This document shows positions 1-8,713 of a stretch of 64,000 bases of DNA, piece by piece (position 1 is the stretch's first letter; the number at the start of each line of letters is the position of its first letter). The notes beneath the pieces were generated by a model that saw only the letters and a list, made by a program, of their open reading frames with translations, searched no databases and had not been told where the DNA came from. The position numbers were made by a program, and so were the translations under genes. Source of the stretch: Acetofilamentum sp. (GTDB lineage Bacteria; Bacteroidota; Bacteroidia; Bacteroidales; DYOH01); assembly GCA_020720625.1 (NCBI GenBank), contig DYOH01000001.1, positions 44,654-108,653 on the forward strand, read 5' to 3'.

Positions 1-8
1 AAACAACC

Positions 9-1298
9 GTGGAAATCAGCATGAAAAATGCCAATAATATGATTATTCCAGCATTGGTTACCATTACACCAATTCTTATTAAACGCGAAGTAAATCTTGT
101 TCTTACAATAAAAGACCTAAGCACCGAAATTAAAGCCATGGAGGAAAAAAAGAAACTCGAAGAACAATTACGCCATGCCCAAAAAATGGAAACTATTGGA
201 ACTTTGGCCGGTGGAATTGCGCACGATTTTAATAATATACTTACTCCTATACTCGGATATACACAAATGGCCATGTCTGATTTGCCAGACCAAAGTCCAT
301 TGCTCGAAGATTTGCAGCATGTTTATAAAGCTGCCGGCAGAGCACGCGATTTGGTAAAACAAATCCTCACTTTTAGCCGTAGATTAGAAACAGAAAAGCT
401 CGTAATTTTTGCACATTTAATTATTAATGAGGTTGTGGGATTAATTACCGCTACAATACCAACCAATATAAGAATTAATAAAAAGATACACGCCAAAAAC
501 GACCAGGTTTTTATTGCCCCTACACAGCTGCATCAGGTAATTATGAATATTTGTACCAATGCCTACCAGGCAATGAAAGAGGATGGAGGCGTGCTTACCA
601 TTGAACTCGATGTATTAGACCAACTCTCCATCGAAGAAACAAGTTCAACCGGTTTGGCAAGTGGCCAATACGTTAGAATGAAAATTGGAGATACCGGAAA
701 GGGAATAGACCCATCCATTATGAGCAGAATATTTGAACCATTTTTTACAACCAAATCAGTAGGAGAGGGCACAGGGCTTGGATTGTCTGTTGCTCACGGA
801 ATAATAAAAGACTCAAATGGTTCTATTCAAGTAAAAAGCACAATCAATTTTGGAACAGAATTTACTGTCTATTTGCCCAAAAGCAAAGAGGAAACAACCG
901 AGATTAAGACTTCGAAATCTGGATTTGATGCAAAAAAATACAAGGCTATTTTAGTCGACGATGATAATGATGTATTATCGCTACTTAAGAAGGTGATGCT
1001 CTCCATGGGATTTTATGTGAGCGATTTCATCAAGTCCGAAAATGCACGTCAATTTATTCAGAAGGATATACACTCGTTTGATTTGCTTATAACCGATCAG
1101 ATAATGCCCGATGTACAAGGAATTGACCTTGTAAAATTGGCTAAGGAGCTTAAACCCGGAATAAAAACAATACTTATCACCGGATACAGCGCCGGTTTAA
1201 CCGACGAAAATGCAAAGAAAAGCGGAGTTGACAAATTTTTATTAAAACCAATAATTATTGATAATTTTGCTGAAACCTTAGCGCAAATATTTAGTTAA
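9..1298 (+). CDS. Hybrid histidine kinase (HisKA-HATPase-REC), 5' end probably truncated by window edge
   Basis: GGIAHDFNNILTPILGY H-box, GDTGKGID and GEGTGLGLSVAHGI HATPase motifs, C-terminal receiver (ILVDDDND...LLITDQIMP...LLKP). N-terminus looks like a PAS tail and the frame stays open to the window edge. Confidence 0.9.
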   Translation: MEISMKNANNMIIPALVTITPILIKREVNLVLTIKDLSTEIKAMEEKKKLEEQLRHAQKMETIGTLAGGIAHDFNNILTPILGYTQMAMSDLPDQSPLLEDLQHVYKAAGRARDLVKQILTFSRRLETEKLVIFAHLIINEVVGLITATIPTNIRINKKIHAKNDQVFIAPTQLHQVIMNICTNAYQAMKEDGGVLTIELDVLDQLSIEETSSTGLASGQYVRMKIGDTGKGIDPSIMSRIFEPFFTTKSVGEGTGLGLSVAHGIIKDSNGSIQVKSTINFGTEFTVYLPKSKEETTEIKTSKSGFDAKKYKAILVDDDNDVLSLLKKVMLSMGFYVSDFIKSENARQFIQKDIHSFDLLITDQIMPDVQGIDLVKLAKELKPGIKTILITGYSAGLTDENAKKSGVDKFLLKPIIIDNFAETLAQIFS

Positions 1299-1303
1299 AT
1301 ATT

Positions 1304-1669
1304 ATGAGTAAAATATTAATCGTCGACGACGACCTGGAGATTTCGGGCTTACTTTTGAAACTGCTTAGCAGGAAAAATTATGAGGTGTTTATTGCTTCAT
1401 CGGGAGCCGATGCCATACAAATTTTTAACTCCAATCAAATTGATTTAATTGTAACAGACATTGTAATGCCCGAAATCGGTGGCCTGGAAGTAATTCGCAT
1501 TGTAAGAGGAATAAATGAGTCGCTGCCCATAATTGCAATGTCGGGGGGCGCACTAATAAATTCGGGAACTTATTTAACTATGGCAAAGCAATTAGGGGCA
1601 AAATATGCTTTTCAGAAACCCTTTGATTTGAACGAGTTTTCGCTTGCAGTGCAAAGTTTGATAGGATAA
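1304..1669 (+). CDS. Response regulator, single receiver domain
   Basis: ILIVDDDLEI...DLIVTDIVMPE...AFQKPFD, 121 aa; 5 bp after the upstream kinase. Confidence 0.92.
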   Translation: MSKILIVDDDLEISGLLLKLLSRKNYEVFIASSGADAIQIFNSNQIDLIVTDIVMPEIGGLEVIRIVRGINESLPIIAMSGGALINSGTYLTMAKQLGAKYAFQKPFDLNEFSLAVQSLIG

Positions 1670-1685: not shown

Positions 1686-3974
1686 TTAACTAAGTAGCTC
1701 AATTTTATTTTCTAATTCTATAATTCCGGTATTTACGGCAGCAATCAAATTACTCAGATATTCCGGATAGCTATCGGGTTCTTCTGATTCCTTTGCTTTT
1801 AACTCAAGGGTTTTCATTTCTGTGGCCATTTCGTTCATACCCACAATGGTAAGCGATGATTTTGTTTTATGTGCTATTTCGCTAAGCTGCTTATAATCTT
1901 TGTTTTGCAATGCAGTTTCCAATTCTTTTATGTAGATAGGAATTTGCTCTTTAAAAAGAATTACCATTTCTTTTATAATTTTTATATTACCCCCCGACAT
2001 GGTTTGCAGGTAGCTAAGATTGGTTATAGAGACTTGGTTTTTTGTGCTATTTATCATATTACTATTATCATCACTTTTATAGTTTGAAAGGATTGCCGAA
2101 ATAAGTTCCTCCTCGGAAAATGGTTTTGAAACAAATTTATTCATTCCCACGGCAAAAGATTTATCGATTTCCGCTTTTGTTGCAGCGGCGGTTAAGGCAA
2201 TAATTAATGTGTCTTTATTTTCCGGCGAATATTCTCTAATGTGTTTGGCAACTTCAAATCCATCCTTCACGGGCATGTGCAAATCCAGCAGAATAGCGTT
2301 AAATTTTAGCGAATCGGAGGCCACAATTGCTTCGCCGCCATCGTTGGCGACTGTAAGCTTAACTTTATATTTTTTTAATATCTCTTTGGCCACTAGTTGG
2401 TTTAGTTTGTTGTCTTCGGCCAATAATATATTCATTTGTTGCATTTGATTGAGCAAGCTTTCGGTTAATATAAATTCATTTTTTTCAATCACAGGTTCAT
2501 CAGATAGCTCAAAAGGTAATTCAATGGTAAAAACCGATCCGGCATCAACTTTGCTTTTCAGGTATATTTTGCCTTTCTGCAATTCTACCAGTTGTTTCGA
2601 TATAGATAAGCCTAGTCCGGTTCCACCATATTTTCGGGTGGTTTCGGTACTTTCTTGCTGAAAACTTTCAAATATGGTTTGCTGTTTTTCGGGTTTAATA
2701 CCTATACCGGTATCACTAATAATGAACTGAAGCAAGGTATAATCTGTTTCGGCATAGCTAGAAATTACATCTAAACTTACGCTTCCTTTTTCAGTAAATT
2801 TAATTCCATTTCCAATAATATTTAACAAAATCTGATTCAAACGAATAGGATCTCCCAGCAAATGATTATTCACATTGTCATGTATCAGGTATTTTAGTTT
2901 AAGGCCTTTTTTATCGGCGCTGTATTTTAAAGTATTAAAAACCTGTTTCACAATTTTGTTTAGTTGGAAAGGAATATGCTCAATTTGAATATTCCCGCTT
3001 TGAATCTTCGAAAAATCGAGAATATCGTTTATGATAACCAATAGATTTTCGGCAGATACTTTGATATTTTTCAAGTATTTTAATTGCTCAACTGTTAAGT
3101 TGCTATCCATTAGTATATTGGTCATTCCTAAAATCGCATTCATCGGAGTTCTTATTTCATGACTCATGTTGGCCACAAACTGTTCTTTAATTTTAACCAG
3201 CTCTAAGGCTTCTTCTTTGGCAGAAACCAATTCGTTATTTTGTATTTCGATATGCTCGAGCAAATTATTTACATCTGTGGCTAATTTACCCACTTCGTCG
3301 TTAGTCTCAATTAATGCTCTTAATTTAAAATTGTTGTCGTTTTTTACTTTACTAACAAGTGTTTGAAGGTTTAGCAATGGACTTGTTATAAATCCCTGAA
3401 GCTTAAGAGTTAATAAGAATGCAATTAACGAACTGCTAAATATTACAATGAGAATAATTTTGATGTATTGCCAGAGTCTTATTTTTATTGGCAAATGCGA
3501 TTGTATATAAATTGCTCCAATAATATCTTCAGAGAAATGATTAATATCGCGAAATTTAATCGATTGAAATACGTTTATTGTATTTCCGTCTACCCAACTG
3601 GTATCAATGTTTCTTACTGTGAAATCAAAATTTTTGATATTGTTTTCTTCTATTGCATAATCGGCAAAGAACTTAAATTTATTGTATTCAGCGTTAATAC
3701 TAAAAATGGTAACATTTTTTATTACAGGGCTATTTTTTATAGAAGAGAGATAGGCTTGTGCATTAAAAATGTCTTCAAAAAATATGACCGCCGAGTTACT
3801 TTCTCCAAACACTTTTGCAAAAACGCTCAATTCCGAAATCTGATTTTTTATAAAATTACGATAATCTATGGTGAGAAAAGCAAATGTGGCAGTGATAAGT
3901 GTGAAACCGCCAATAAAAGTAATTAGCAGAATTATTTTTAGTCTGATGGATAAATCTTTAAAAAGCTTTTTCAT
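1686..3974 (-). CDS. Hybrid sensor kinase: CHASE8-like periplasmic region, HAMP, HisKA, HATPase, REC, Hpt
   Basis: FVANMSHEIRTPMNAILGMTN, GGTGLGLSISKQLV, receiver ILLAEDNKLNQ...AILLDLHMPVKDG, C-terminal Hpt (IAHKTKSSLTIVGM). N-terminal region resembles the YfiN-type CHASE8 domain. Confidence 0.92.
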   Translation of the reverse strand: MKKLFKDLSIRLKIILLITFIGGFTLITATFAFLTIDYRNFIKNQISELSVFAKVFGESNSAVIFFEDIFNAQAYLSSIKNSPVIKNVTIFSINAEYNKFKFFADYAIEENNIKNFDFTVRNIDTSWVDGNTINVFQSIKFRDINHFSEDIIGAIYIQSHLPIKIRLWQYIKIILIVIFSSSLIAFLLTLKLQGFITSPLLNLQTLVSKVKNDNNFKLRALIETNDEVGKLATDVNNLLEHIEIQNNELVSAKEEALELVKIKEQFVANMSHEIRTPMNAILGMTNILMDSNLTVEQLKYLKNIKVSAENLLVIINDILDFSKIQSGNIQIEHIPFQLNKIVKQVFNTLKYSADKKGLKLKYLIHDNVNNHLLGDPIRLNQILLNIIGNGIKFTEKGSVSLDVISSYAETDYTLLQFIISDTGIGIKPEKQQTIFESFQQESTETTRKYGGTGLGLSISKQLVELQKGKIYLKSKVDAGSVFTIELPFELSDEPVIEKNEFILTESLLNQMQQMNILLAEDNKLNQLVAKEILKKYKVKLTVANDGGEAIVASDSLKFNAILLDLHMPVKDGFEVAKHIREYSPENKDTLIIALTAAATKAEIDKSFAVGMNKFVSKPFSEEELISAILSNYKSDDNSNMINSTKNQVSITNLSYLQTMSGGNIKIIKEMVILFKEQIPIYIKELETALQNKDYKQLSEIAHKTKSSLTIVGMNEMATEMKTLELKAKESEEPDSYPEYLSNLIAAVNTGIIELENKIELLS

Positions 3975-4095
3975 CCGTATATCATTTTTTGTTGAAGCAA
4001 ATTTGAAATGCCATGCAATTATTTTTTTATAGTTATTCCCTTTTATTCAGGCACATATTTCTACTTTCTGAAATCATTTAATTTTCATCCTTTTC

Positions 4096-4638
4096 TTATT
4101 TATTTGTTGAAATAACTTTTGCTACCGATAGTAGTCTGCTATCAATGATTAAGCCATTTTCGCGAGCCTGCACATAGTTTATTTCAAATTTTTTATCTGT
4201 CGCATTCTCGTTAAAGTTAATAATTCCTCCATTCTCGCAAAAATTTTTGATATTATTACCAATAGTAAGTATGGGGTGATTTTGGCTAATTTTTAAGACT
4301 TGAGCAATTATTTCAGCATCTAAGGTATTAATAAAAACGATGTTGCAACTTAGAATTTCCTCAGGTTTTTTTATATTTGTGATTATCCAATTATTGGGAA
4401 CTTTGCTTCGGGCTTCAAGCATTTGTTTTAGTACATCTCCAAAAATATCTTCTCCTATAATTCCCATCACAACATTTTGATTTTGTACTTGATTTGGCCA
4501 TACTATAAATTTGGTGAAATTTATGATGTAACCAGCTTTAACCTGCTCATTGGTAAAAGTTTGCGCTCTGGCATTTTCTGCCAAGGCGCAAAAAATGAAG
4601 ATAAGAAATACCAAATATATTTTATTCAATTTTTTCAC
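4096..4638 (-). CDS. YfiR family (DUF4154) periplasmic protein
   Basis: Signal peptide, then QVKAGYIINFTKFIVWPN and the spaced motifs GIIGED...VFINTLD...ILTIGNN, characteristic of YfiR/DUF4154. Confidence 0.88.
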   Translation of the reverse strand: MKKLNKIYLVFLIFIFCALAENARAQTFTNEQVKAGYIINFTKFIVWPNQVQNQNVVMGIIGEDIFGDVLKQMLEARSKVPNNWIITNIKKPEEILSCNIVFINTLDAEIIAQVLKISQNHPILTIGNNIKNFCENGGIINFNENATDKKFEINYVQARENGLIIDSRLLSVAKVISTNK

Positions 4639-7091
4639 TTTCTGATATCAAAAATCTTGATGATTATAAAATAATATTTATTGTTGTTTTCCGCTGTGAG
4701 CAAATCCGGCTTAAATGTGGTTTGCAGTATAGAATTTTGGCAATCGCAGCCGTTTTTTTGCAGAAATTCATGTACCATCATCGATTTTGATTTTAGGGCA
4801 TTAATTTCCTTTATTCTATCTACTTCGGCATTAAACGAAATTGCCTCAATGCTTATGTATAAATATGGGTTTTCGTTAATTAGCTGTATTACATCAAACA
4901 ATAAATTAAAATATTCCGGTGAAACGCTTGTTTGATTTACATCAATTTTCATTTCGTATTGAAAAACAAGGGTATTTGTCGATTTAGTAGAATCTGCATC
5001 AATAAGCGATTGAATTTGATTTGCACCTGTAATATCTGTAATTCTTTGTGCACTGATGTTTTTAAATGCTTTTAAAGGTGGTGCCGTGAAAATGGTGTCT
5101 CCTTCAATTACTATGAAATGTTTTTTTGTGGCAAGGGAAGAATGATAGCTGTGCGAGTAAATTTCGGTTTTCTCGCTTTTCTCAAATAATTGATTAATGG
5201 TAGCTGTATCTGTATTAATGATGCTGTTTTCGATTAATAATAATAAATCGTTCAATTGCGATTCTGCTCCAATAGTACCATTGCTCTCTTCTGTTTCTTG
5301 ATTTAATGATTGTTTTACATAGCTGTTTATGGAATCTATTTTGCCACTTACGTCATAAAACAGATTTTGCATTTCGCTTAAGTATCCTGTGATGGAATCG
5401 TTGGCCAATTTTCCTAAATCGTAGAAATTGTTTTTTACCGTAATTTCGGCTGCTTCTAATTGAGTACTGTCTGTAAATGGTTGTAAGCTTATGCTTTGAA
5501 ATATTTGATAGAAATATTCCTGTTTAGGAACTTCAATGGTAATTTTTTGCGGTTTATATCCTTCGGCTTCAAAGAGTAAATCATATACCTTTCCGGGCTC
5601 AAATATGATAAAATATTTTCCAAGTGCTTTTTGCGATGTAAAACTGTATTTTATTTTCTCCTTTGTAGATGTTTCAATTACAGATAGCTTTAGGTTTACA
5701 GGTTTTGGCGGATTGCCTGCCTGAAAAGTGCCGTTGAGTAGCGTTAGTGGAATGCTCTCATTTAGTTTTACGCTATATAAATCGTGCAGACGAATATTTC
5801 TTTTCTGATTACTTGAGTAGAATGCCAGGTTATTGGTGGTTGATGTTGTAAATGAGCGGTTGTTACCAACAGTATTTATTGCGAATCCTATGTTTTGTGC
5901 ATTTCCGGTTTTGTTTTTTACCATCGGGCTCATAAAAATATCGAATCCGCCCATACTTTGGTACGACGATGAGCTAAAATAAAGCATCATGTTTTTGCGG
6001 TTAAAAAATGGATCAATTTCGTCGAGGGCTGTATTTATTACTTCCAGATTTACAATAGAATCCCATGTTCCGTTATGTTTTTGGTCTATTTTATATATAT
6101 CATACCCTCCTTTGCCGCCGGCTCTGGAGCTGCTGAAATATATTTCTTTATTGTTTTTTCCAAAAGAAATTCTTCCGTCGCCTTTTTGTAAAAAACTATA
6201 ATTAAGTGGTTGTAGCTCAATTACTTTGTCTCCACTAATTTTGCATAGATATACAGAACTTTCATTGGGTGTGTCTTTATAAATGAGCAAATTTTCCTGC
6301 TCAAAATCCATTCCTGCAATTCTAATATTTTGTACATTTTGCATAAAACTATTCGGAAACTCCAGAATTTTAGATTTTGTCCAGATTCCAAATTCATTCC
6401 TGCTCAGCATTATTTGGTTTCGGTTTTTCTTTAGGGAATCTTTTTCGAAATATAGAATAGTGCCATCAAAATTTACTACAACATTAATTTCGTCGTGGGC
6501 TTCGTTATTTATATTGCCTCTTAGACCACTTATTTCCGAGTATATTGTATCTTTTATTATTGACTGAGCATTTAAGGATGCATTTATCATCATTTTTGTA
6601 TAGCCATAGAACTCGTCTTTGTTGCTAACCTTTTCAAGGTATTTATTAAAGTAATATATTGCTTTAGCAAATTGATAATCTAAATAATATAGCCTGCCTA
6701 AATCTTTATATATAATGGTAGGAGTATTGGAATATCCCGACTCCAGAACGTATTCAATATAGGGTAGGGCGGTTTGCGGATCGCCATTTTTTTCGAGATG
6801 ACATACAGCAATCAGATACTTTACATAAACTTGCTCTATATTAATAAATTGAGAATCAATAAAGAACTGAAAGTTTTCGGAATTTTTCAAAAATTGAGGG
6901 GCTTTTAAAGAATCGAGTTCATATAAAATAGCCAAAGCTTTATCATAGTTTTCTTCGTAAATATAGTCAAGGCTTCTGTAAAAGTTTTTTTCATAAAGCT
7001 TTTTGTCAACCTGTTGAGCGTTTAAAAGCGTTTGGGTAAACAAAAATAGTAATAAAGTAAGCAGCTGAAAAAGATTTTTATTTGGTCCCAT
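4635..7091 (-). CDS. PD40/TolB-like beta-propeller envelope protein with TPR-like N-terminus and degenerate OmpA-like C-terminus
   Basis: GDGRISFGKNNKEIYFSSSRAGGKGGYDIYKI and LYFSSSSYQSMGGFDIFMSP PD40 motifs; signal peptide; 4-bp overlap with the YfiR gene. Confidence 0.8.
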   Translation of the reverse strand: MGPNKNLFQLLTLLLFLFTQTLLNAQQVDKKLYEKNFYRSLDYIYEENYDKALAILYELDSLKAPQFLKNSENFQFFIDSQFINIEQVYVKYLIAVCHLEKNGDPQTALPYIEYVLESGYSNTPTIIYKDLGRLYYLDYQFAKAIYYFNKYLEKVSNKDEFYGYTKMMINASLNAQSIIKDTIYSEISGLRGNINNEAHDEINVVVNFDGTILYFEKDSLKKNRNQIMLSRNEFGIWTKSKILEFPNSFMQNVQNIRIAGMDFEQENLLIYKDTPNESSVYLCKISGDKVIELQPLNYSFLQKGDGRISFGKNNKEIYFSSSRAGGKGGYDIYKIDQKHNGTWDSIVNLEVINTALDEIDPFFNRKNMMLYFSSSSYQSMGGFDIFMSPMVKNKTGNAQNIGFAINTVGNNRSFTTSTTNNLAFYSSNQKRNIRLHDLYSVKLNESIPLTLLNGTFQAGNPPKPVNLKLSVIETSTKEKIKYSFTSQKALGKYFIIFEPGKVYDLLFEAEGYKPQKITIEVPKQEYFYQIFQSISLQPFTDSTQLEAAEITVKNNFYDLGKLANDSITGYLSEMQNLFYDVSGKIDSINSYVKQSLNQETEESNGTIGAESQLNDLLLLIENSIINTDTATINQLFEKSEKTEIYSHSYHSSLATKKHFIVIEGDTIFTAPPLKAFKNISAQRITDITGANQIQSLIDADSTKSTNTLVFQYEMKIDVNQTSVSPEYFNLLFDVIQLINENPYLYISIEAISFNAEVDRIKEINALKSKSMMVHEFLQKNGCDCQNSILQTTFKPDLLTAENNNKYYFIIIKIFDIRK

Positions 7092-7093
7092 TT

Positions 7094-8176
7094 TTATTTT
7101 TTAGAATCTTCTTGTTTTAAGTTGGTTTTTAGAATTGTACTAATGATATTGTCGAAAAGTTTAAAAATAAACTCTACACTGTAACCTGCTAGAAATGCCA
7201 CTGCCAGAGGCGATAAATTGGCGATAAAACTTTGGCTTAATTCAGAGCGATCACCCCAGAATAATCCTACCATTAATCCCAGTAGTGCTCCCAAATTAAT
7301 TCGTAAAGTATAATTTATGCGTGATTCATGTGAGAATAGCATTTTTTCGATTTCGGTTGTAAGATTTCTGAGCACAAAAGCAAATCCGCCCAATAACCCA
7401 TATAGCAAAGGTAGAATATAAATATTGAGAATAAGGTTTGTATTGTTGGCCGATTGAAGCACATCCACCCGTTCCATATATGCTGGGTTTTGCCCAGGCA
7501 TCATCATCATGTCGCCGGAGGCAATACCTCCTTGTTCTATTTGTGTTTCTGGAGTGTCTTTTCTAAATCTGAGAAATTCAAGATTATGCAAGGATTCCAA
7601 TAATTTGATGCTACTATTTTTTTCGTTTTCGAGTTCTTCAAATTCGCTTTGCAGGATTCCAATTTGCAAACTTGTTCTTTTATTGGTCGATTTATCTATC
7701 AGGTTAAGATCGGAAACCTGAACCTCTATTTCCTTCATTCGAATGCTGGCTTTTTCAATGCTTTTGAGCAAAGTGGTGCCAATTACACTATAAATTTGCA
7801 AAATAAGCATTACAGCCATTGATAACAAGGCAAATGTTGTATAGAGTTTTACTGCGGAATGGGCAAGTGCAGGTTTAATTTTTTGTTTTATGAGTTTTTG
7901 CCATAGCGTAGGTGAGTTTATTGGTTGTTCGATGGTTGCTAAAAGGCTGTTGATGGTAACTGGATGAATCAATTTTACCATTTTTTGATAAGTATGCCAG
8001 AATTTAGCTTCCTCTTCGGGAGTCCATTTGTTTTCGCTGTTCAATTGTTTGGCTTTGGTCAGGATATTAATCTGATCTTCACTAATATCAATACCATGTT
8101 CTGCAATGTAGGAGAGTAAAAGCTGGGAATGTTGCACTGCTTCGCTTAAAAGCTGATTATTCACTGTGTTTGCCAT
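7094..8176 (-). CDS. Membrane protein of unknown function, multiple TM segments and coiled coil
   Basis: Start chosen at MANTVNN within ORF 7094..8203; TM segments such as LLSMAVMLILQIYSVIG and LYGLLGGFAFVLRNL; directly upstream of the PD40 gene on the same strand. Confidence 0.6.
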   Translation of the reverse strand: MANTVNNQLLSEAVQHSQLLLSYIAEHGIDISEDQINILTKAKQLNSENKWTPEEEAKFWHTYQKMVKLIHPVTINSLLATIEQPINSPTLWQKLIKQKIKPALAHSAVKLYTTFALLSMAVMLILQIYSVIGTTLLKSIEKASIRMKEIEVQVSDLNLIDKSTNKRTSLQIGILQSEFEELENEKNSSIKLLESLHNLEFLRFRKDTPETQIEQGGIASGDMMMMPGQNPAYMERVDVLQSANNTNLILNIYILPLLYGLLGGFAFVLRNLTTEIEKMLFSHESRINYTLRINLGALLGLMVGLFWGDRSELSQSFIANLSPLAVAFLAGYSVEFIFKLFDNIISTILKTNLKQEDSKK

Positions 8177-8260
8177 CGGCCTTTGATTAAATAAAACAAT
8201 CACTACCCAGATGCACTAAGTAGCGTTGATAAGATATAATTTTTTTTGCGAATTTAAGCA

Positions 8261-8713
8261 TTATTTTATGAGAATTTGAAATTTTTTCAGCTCATTAAAT
8301 TCTACCAAGCCATTATCTTCGTATGATATTACTTGTACTTCCCACCATCCGGGTTTTAAATCGCTAATTTTGGATTCTATAGAAACATAATATTTTCCAT
8401 CCCTAATAGTTGATTTTGCAATCCCTTTTATGCTTTGAACAAAAAATCTTTTGGTGCTGGCATACCTGTACCATTGAAACTCAAATTCGGGCAATTTATT
8501 TTGATTAAATTGACTAAAATCGTTTTTTTCAAAGAAAAGCACTAAGGCAAGGGTATCTGGTTTTGCAATACCATTTCTGAAGGCTGTTGGTAAAAATATG
8601 TTTTGATCGTCGGCTTTCCATACTACGTGCGCGGGTTTTAACAAACTGGATGGTTGCGCTGCCGTTACCAGATAGCATACTAAAATACTGAATACTAATA
8701 TAATCTTTTTCAT
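8261..8713 (-). CDS. Hypothetical secreted protein
   Basis: Signal peptide MKKIILVFSILVCYLVTAAQ; ORF of 150 aa. Confidence 0.6.
   Translation of the reverse strand: MKKIILVFSILVCYLVTAAQPSSLLKPAHVVWKADDQNIFLPTAFRNGIAKPDTLALVLFFEKNDFSQFNQNKLPEFEFQWYRYASTKRFFVQSIKGIAKSTIRDGKYYVSIESKISDLKPGWWEVQVISYEDNGLVEFNELKKFQILIK

Follow-up and report, generated by a model that had tools for sequence, protein, structure and literature searches.

The YfiBNR system is a main model for how stress in the outer envelope reaches an output at the inner membrane, and it has been studied as a c-di-GMP switch. The locus described here, found in a 64,000 nucleotide stretch of Acetofilamentum sp. contig DYOH01000001.1 (hereafter the window), raises the question of whether an input of this type may instead feed a phosphorelay. 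The first-pass annotation of this DNA had noted a YfiR-family gene beside a CHASE8-like hybrid kinase and an overlapping gene for an OmpA-type protein, an observation that is borne out by our analyses, and its central idea was that a kinase output stands in place of GGDEF. This idea had already been published for other lineages: distant yfi operons have GGDEF-EAL, Hpt, histidine kinase or MCP outputs in place of the GGDEF domain, Thauera has a YfiN with a hybrid sensor kinase output, and YfiR together with PAS/HAMP has been proposed to be an ancient module (Malone et al., 2012; PMC3375315). The divergent operons, with Rhodothermus marinus among the distant homologues compared, resemble the window in coupling a YfiR and PAS/HAMP core to outputs of the histidine kinase or Hpt type; almost all of them were reported to be without a YfiB homologue, whereas the lineage of the window keeps an OmpA-fold protein in the operon (PMC3375315). 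On the basis of sequence comparisons, the novel aspect of the present locus would thus be the conservation of the operon, which includes an OmpA-type outer-membrane partner of its own, and our literature search found no paper on a YfiR locus of this kind in Bacteroidetes.

The genes of interest lie on the minus strand and encode, in the order of transcription, a membrane protein of 369 aa (7094-8203), an envelope protein of 818 aa with TPR, beta-propeller and OmpA-fold regions (4635..7091), a YfiR/DUF4154 periplasmic protein of 180 aa with a signal peptide (4096..4638), and a hybrid histidine kinase of 762 aa (1686..3974). The gene positions given in the first-pass annotation are all correct; the 818 aa gene and yfiR overlap by 4 bp, and as a small correction yfiR is separated from the kinase gene by a gap of 121 bp. 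The 369 aa membrane protein, which had also been pointed out, was rejected as a conserved operon member, because of the loci examined only that of a congeneric genome has an orthologue. Upstream of the operon, positions 8261-8713 of the window encode a secreted protein of 150 aa without a significant Pfam family. Matches to a Bacteroidetes promoter pattern were not clearly more frequent than expected by chance, and none was on the strand of the operon.

The assignment of the product of 4096..4638 to the YfiR/DUF4154 family is firm at the level of sequence. This protein matches PF13689 (DUF4154) with an E-value of 4.2e-33 and a score of 114.9 bits, far above the gathering cut-off of 24.9 bits, and the P. 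aeruginosa YfiR structures in the PDB are matched in a phmmer search (E=3e-4), which upholds its earlier identification as a member of the YfiR family. Its score against the narrower NCBIfam model NF053591 (TOL_0243 YfiR-like) is 91.5 bits, under the curated cut-off of 125. The residues F162/E163 of P. aeruginosa YfiR align with F151/E152 of the window protein, F151 being invariant in the seven closest copies, and most copies of the clade retain cysteines at the two positions that correspond to C110 and C145 of P. aeruginosa YfiR.

The periplasmic sensor region of the kinase (residues ~33-165; 3480..3878, minus strand) had been described as CHASE8-like, and this description holds for the family but less clearly for the individual protein. 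The window kinase on its own matches CHASE8 over residues 47-94 with only 18.7 bits (E=0.0022; cut-off 27 bits), but 28 of the 31 homologous kinases that adjoin YfiR match this domain (best E-value 5.9e-16), and all 31 match both HAMP and the NCBIfam model NF053592 (HK_near_YfiR_like). The latter model, which together with NF053591 describes the same pairing of genes, is matched by the window kinase over its full length with 124.6 bits, under the curated cut-off of 194. The similarity to CHASE8 on which the earlier proposal had been made to depend is therefore present at the family level. An AlphaFold model of residues 1-190, built from 33 sequences (pLDDT 88.9, pTM 0.80), predicts a PAS-like sheet of five strands between two transmembrane helices, the first of them long. 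A Foldseek search with this model gave no match with E<0.001; the weak matches were to the output domain of LapD (the best, E=1.5e-3) and to the sensor domains of WalK and CitA, and searching the sequences of solved structures with an alignment of the sensors likewise gave weak matches only (best E=0.12). Because these structural matches are weak, the predicted fold is called PAS/Cache-like on the basis of its secondary structure and its family, with CHASE8 assigned at the family level. The AAVVF motif of E. coli YfiN, a proposed YfiR-binding site (PMC3375315), aligns with the residues AVIFF (A62 to F66; 3777..3791, minus strand) of the window kinase, and F66 is one of two positions that are at least 90% conserved across the 33 sensors.

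The remainder of the kinase contains all of the parts of a complete phosphorelay, as had been claimed. A HAMP domain (residues 195-243; 3246..3392) is followed by HisKA (263-327) and HATPase_c (374-489), which together occupy 2508..3188, a receiver domain (516-628; 2091..2429), and an Hpt domain (669-747; 1734..1970), all identified by Pfam. The catalytic motifs of these domains are intact (viz. H272, the N385 box, DTGIGI421, D564, and H702). In most of the loci from a scan with the YfiR alignment alone (described below) the Hpt domain is part of the kinase or is encoded by a separate neighboring gene, as expected for a phosphorelay. No match to GGDEF was found in 31 genomes (the source genome and 30 relatives), hence the output cannot be canonical c-di-GMP synthesis. 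Convergent with the operon, on the plus strand, are a gene for a single-domain receiver (1304..1669), whose orthologue matches PF00072, and the 3' part of a gene for an 896 aa kinase-REC protein (1..1298), which starts before the window at a coordinate of about -1392 and whose orthologues in the genomes G297 and G298 are multi-PAS kinases. Both genes adjoin the hybrid kinase in the source genome, G297 and G298 alike, and the single-domain receiver is a candidate acceptor for the Hpt domain.

The 818 aa protein, which had been suggested to take the role of YfiB, has a signal peptide, TPR helices (residues 24-180), a beta-propeller/PD40 region (~187-442), a TTR/CarboxypepD-like domain (~450-540) and, after a linker of low confidence, an OmpA fold at the C-terminus (~705-815; 4647..4979, minus strand). 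This OmpA fold is seen in an AlphaFold model with an overall pLDDT of 71.6, where it has a beta-alpha-beta-alpha-beta-beta topology (strands 707-717, 744-752, 787-793, and 806-815; helices 725-740 and 759-779). By itself the window protein matches no Pfam family significantly, and among eight aligned family members OmpA is matched by six and PD40 by five. An alignment that includes E. coli YfiB and relatives indicates that the peptidoglycan-binding Asp and Arg of the OmpA domain are kept in most copies, but this pair is absent in the window protein and in its family members from G297 and G298, and no lipobox is seen at the N-terminus of the window protein. The part of the earlier suggestion that stands is thus the conserved presence of an OmpA-type partner in the operon; since the Asp/Arg pair is lost and no lipobox is seen, the 818 aa protein is not a YfiB orthologue and is at most a candidate functional analogue of YfiB, as judged from its modeled fold and its sequence.

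The linkage of YfiR to kinases of this type, which the first-pass annotation had made a further test of its reading, is conserved across Bacteroidota and beyond. In a survey of 297 genomes of the phylum, DUF4154 was found in 34, CHASE8 in 42, and both in 24 (Fisher p=1.7e-16 for their co-occurrence); 23 of the 55 CHASE8 loci have a DUF4154 gene nearby in the same orientation (in 22 of these the DUF4154 domain is within 300 bp), and the other 32 CHASE8 matches have no YfiR nearby. In most of the gene neighborhoods inspected, yfiR immediately precedes the gene for a kinase whose sensor is homologous. A scan of contigs with the YfiR alignment alone identified 32 loci, mostly in Bacteroidota MAGs (Salinivirgaceae, Marinilabiliales, and others). 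A propeller/OmpA gene is directly upstream of yfiR in 22 of these 32 loci, and in 29 of the 31 loci with a called YfiR ORF a CHASE8-like kinase, recognized by the sensor profile, is encoded downstream; after the removal of repeats, 21 of 24 YfiR-kinase pairs are part of complete three-gene operons. Two loci titled as MAGs of Thalassobius and Thalassovita (L159 and L162) combine YfiR with the propeller gene and with a kinase in which the sensor profile is matched partially at two separate places. In other Bacteroidota the YfiR-kinase core is the same and the gene that adjoins YfiR encodes a TonB-dependent receptor, Plug being matched by 24 of the 29 neighboring genes examined. The distances between YfiR proteins are correlated with those between the sensors (r=0.76; partial correlation 0.61 given the kinase core), whereas the partial correlation with the kinase core given the sensor is 0.31 (47 pairs, with species relatedness only partly corrected).

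The window system shares with YfiBNR, TpbB and AwsXRO of Pseudomonas and with DgcN-YfiR-YfiB of E. coli a periplasmic YfiR-family protein encoded beside a membrane signaling protein with CHASE8 (here at the family level) and HAMP, an OmpA-fold envelope protein, and interface motifs that align. It differs from YfiBNR in its output (HisKA-REC-Hpt vs. GGDEF), from E. coli in gene order (OmpA-YfiR-sensor vs. YfiR-YfiN-YfiB), and from YfiB in that its OmpA-type protein is large, with TPR and propeller regions, and has a degenerate peptidoglycan pocket. Because it has neither a GGDEF output nor a Pal-like, peptidoglycan-binding OmpA lipoprotein, we regard it as YfiBNR-like in its predicted working and not as a member of YfiBNR.

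These results are best accounted for by an envelope sensor of the Yfi type whose output is a phosphorelay, a mechanism to which, taken as a whole, we assign a probability of about 0.68, and they support the earlier proposal that a YfiBNR-like input is directed into a phosphorelay. Periplasmic YfiR would bind to the AVIFF surface of the CHASE8/PAS-like sensor domain and would hold the kinase in one signaling state. A change in the envelope would then remove YfiR, either through its sequestration by the propeller/OmpA-fold protein or through a change in YfiR itself, and the HAMP domain and kinase core would switch as a consequence. Phosphate would pass from H272 to D564 and H702, and from there to a separate receiver, possibly the one at 1304-1669.

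An alternative that we consider unlikely is that YfiR itself is the sensor, responding to redox state or to a small ligand and acting on the kinase, with the propeller/OmpA protein having a structural role and no part in sequestration. In P. aeruginosa, YfiR is a redox-responsive protein that also binds small molecules (PMC4887326; PMC3375315), and the retention of the cysteines aligned with C110 and C145, the loss of the peptidoglycan-binding residues in the window OmpA domain, and the lack of the upstream gene beside some YfiR-kinase pairs (L119/L145 and L144) are all in accord with this explanation. However, the tight and often overlapping operon with the propeller/OmpA gene is conserved, and in other Bacteroidota this gene is replaced by TonB-dependent receptors, both of which suggest that an outer-membrane partner matters. 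It is much less probable that the genes are chance neighbors, with YfiR serving another kinase or receptor and the window kinase sensing its own ligand by means of its PAS/Cache-like domain; the source genome does encode nine DUF4154 proteins, and the weak structural matches of the sensor (LapD output, CitA and WalK) would fit an independent sensor, but the adjacency of YfiR and kinase is conserved over many families and YfiR covaries specifically with the sensor. Least probable of all, and in our view very remote, is that the operon serves mainly in envelope integrity or type IX secretion, with a kinase that reports on a PorE/CHU_0125-like function: the 818 aa protein does match the NCBIfam PorE and CHU_0125 families, but these matches are limited to residues 276-561 and reach ~76 bits, where the cut-offs are 600 or higher.

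YfiR also occurs in other architectures. At one locus of the source genome (L039:5847-9674) a second OmpA-type gene, which encodes a protein of 390 aa with a match to the propeller/OmpA profile, is followed by YfiR and then by a chemotaxis receptor (an MCP with HAMP), and at another (L041:6393-9022) a second stand-alone YfiR gene overlaps the gene for a CHASE8-HAMP-PAS kinase, after which comes a REC-kinase gene. Five further genes of the source genome (L042:6107-8926, L043:6144-8063, L044:3987-6662, L045:5143-6939, and L046:5961-8339) encode fusions of an N-terminal YfiR, a periplasmic coiled coil of ~110-170 aa, one transmembrane helix, and a cytoplasmic SpoIIE-type phosphatase, with PAS domains in three of the five; no paper naming YfiR with SpoIIE was found in our literature search. 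Fusions of YfiR, coiled coil, transmembrane helix, and histidine kinase (L068-L072) are located directly 3' of a set of genes that mostly encode TonB-dependent receptors. The identification of the region between YfiR and the transmembrane helix of YfiR fusions as CHASE8 was dropped, as this region reads as a coiled coil.

With roughly even odds, YfiR in this lineage, where no GGDEF was found, may be a general periplasmic adaptor that connects interchangeable outer-membrane inputs (viz. propeller/OmpA-fold proteins and TonB-dependent receptors) to interchangeable cytoplasmic outputs (viz. phosphorelay kinases, an MCP, and those SpoIIE-type phosphatases that a periplasmic coiled coil joins to YfiR in one protein). 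A conserved form of Yfi that has its own OmpA-type partner and occurs without GGDEF proteins would allow the ancestral parts of the mechanism to be separated from those that were added on, and the action of YfiR on CHASE8 would be a part of the mechanism whose ancestry becomes testable.
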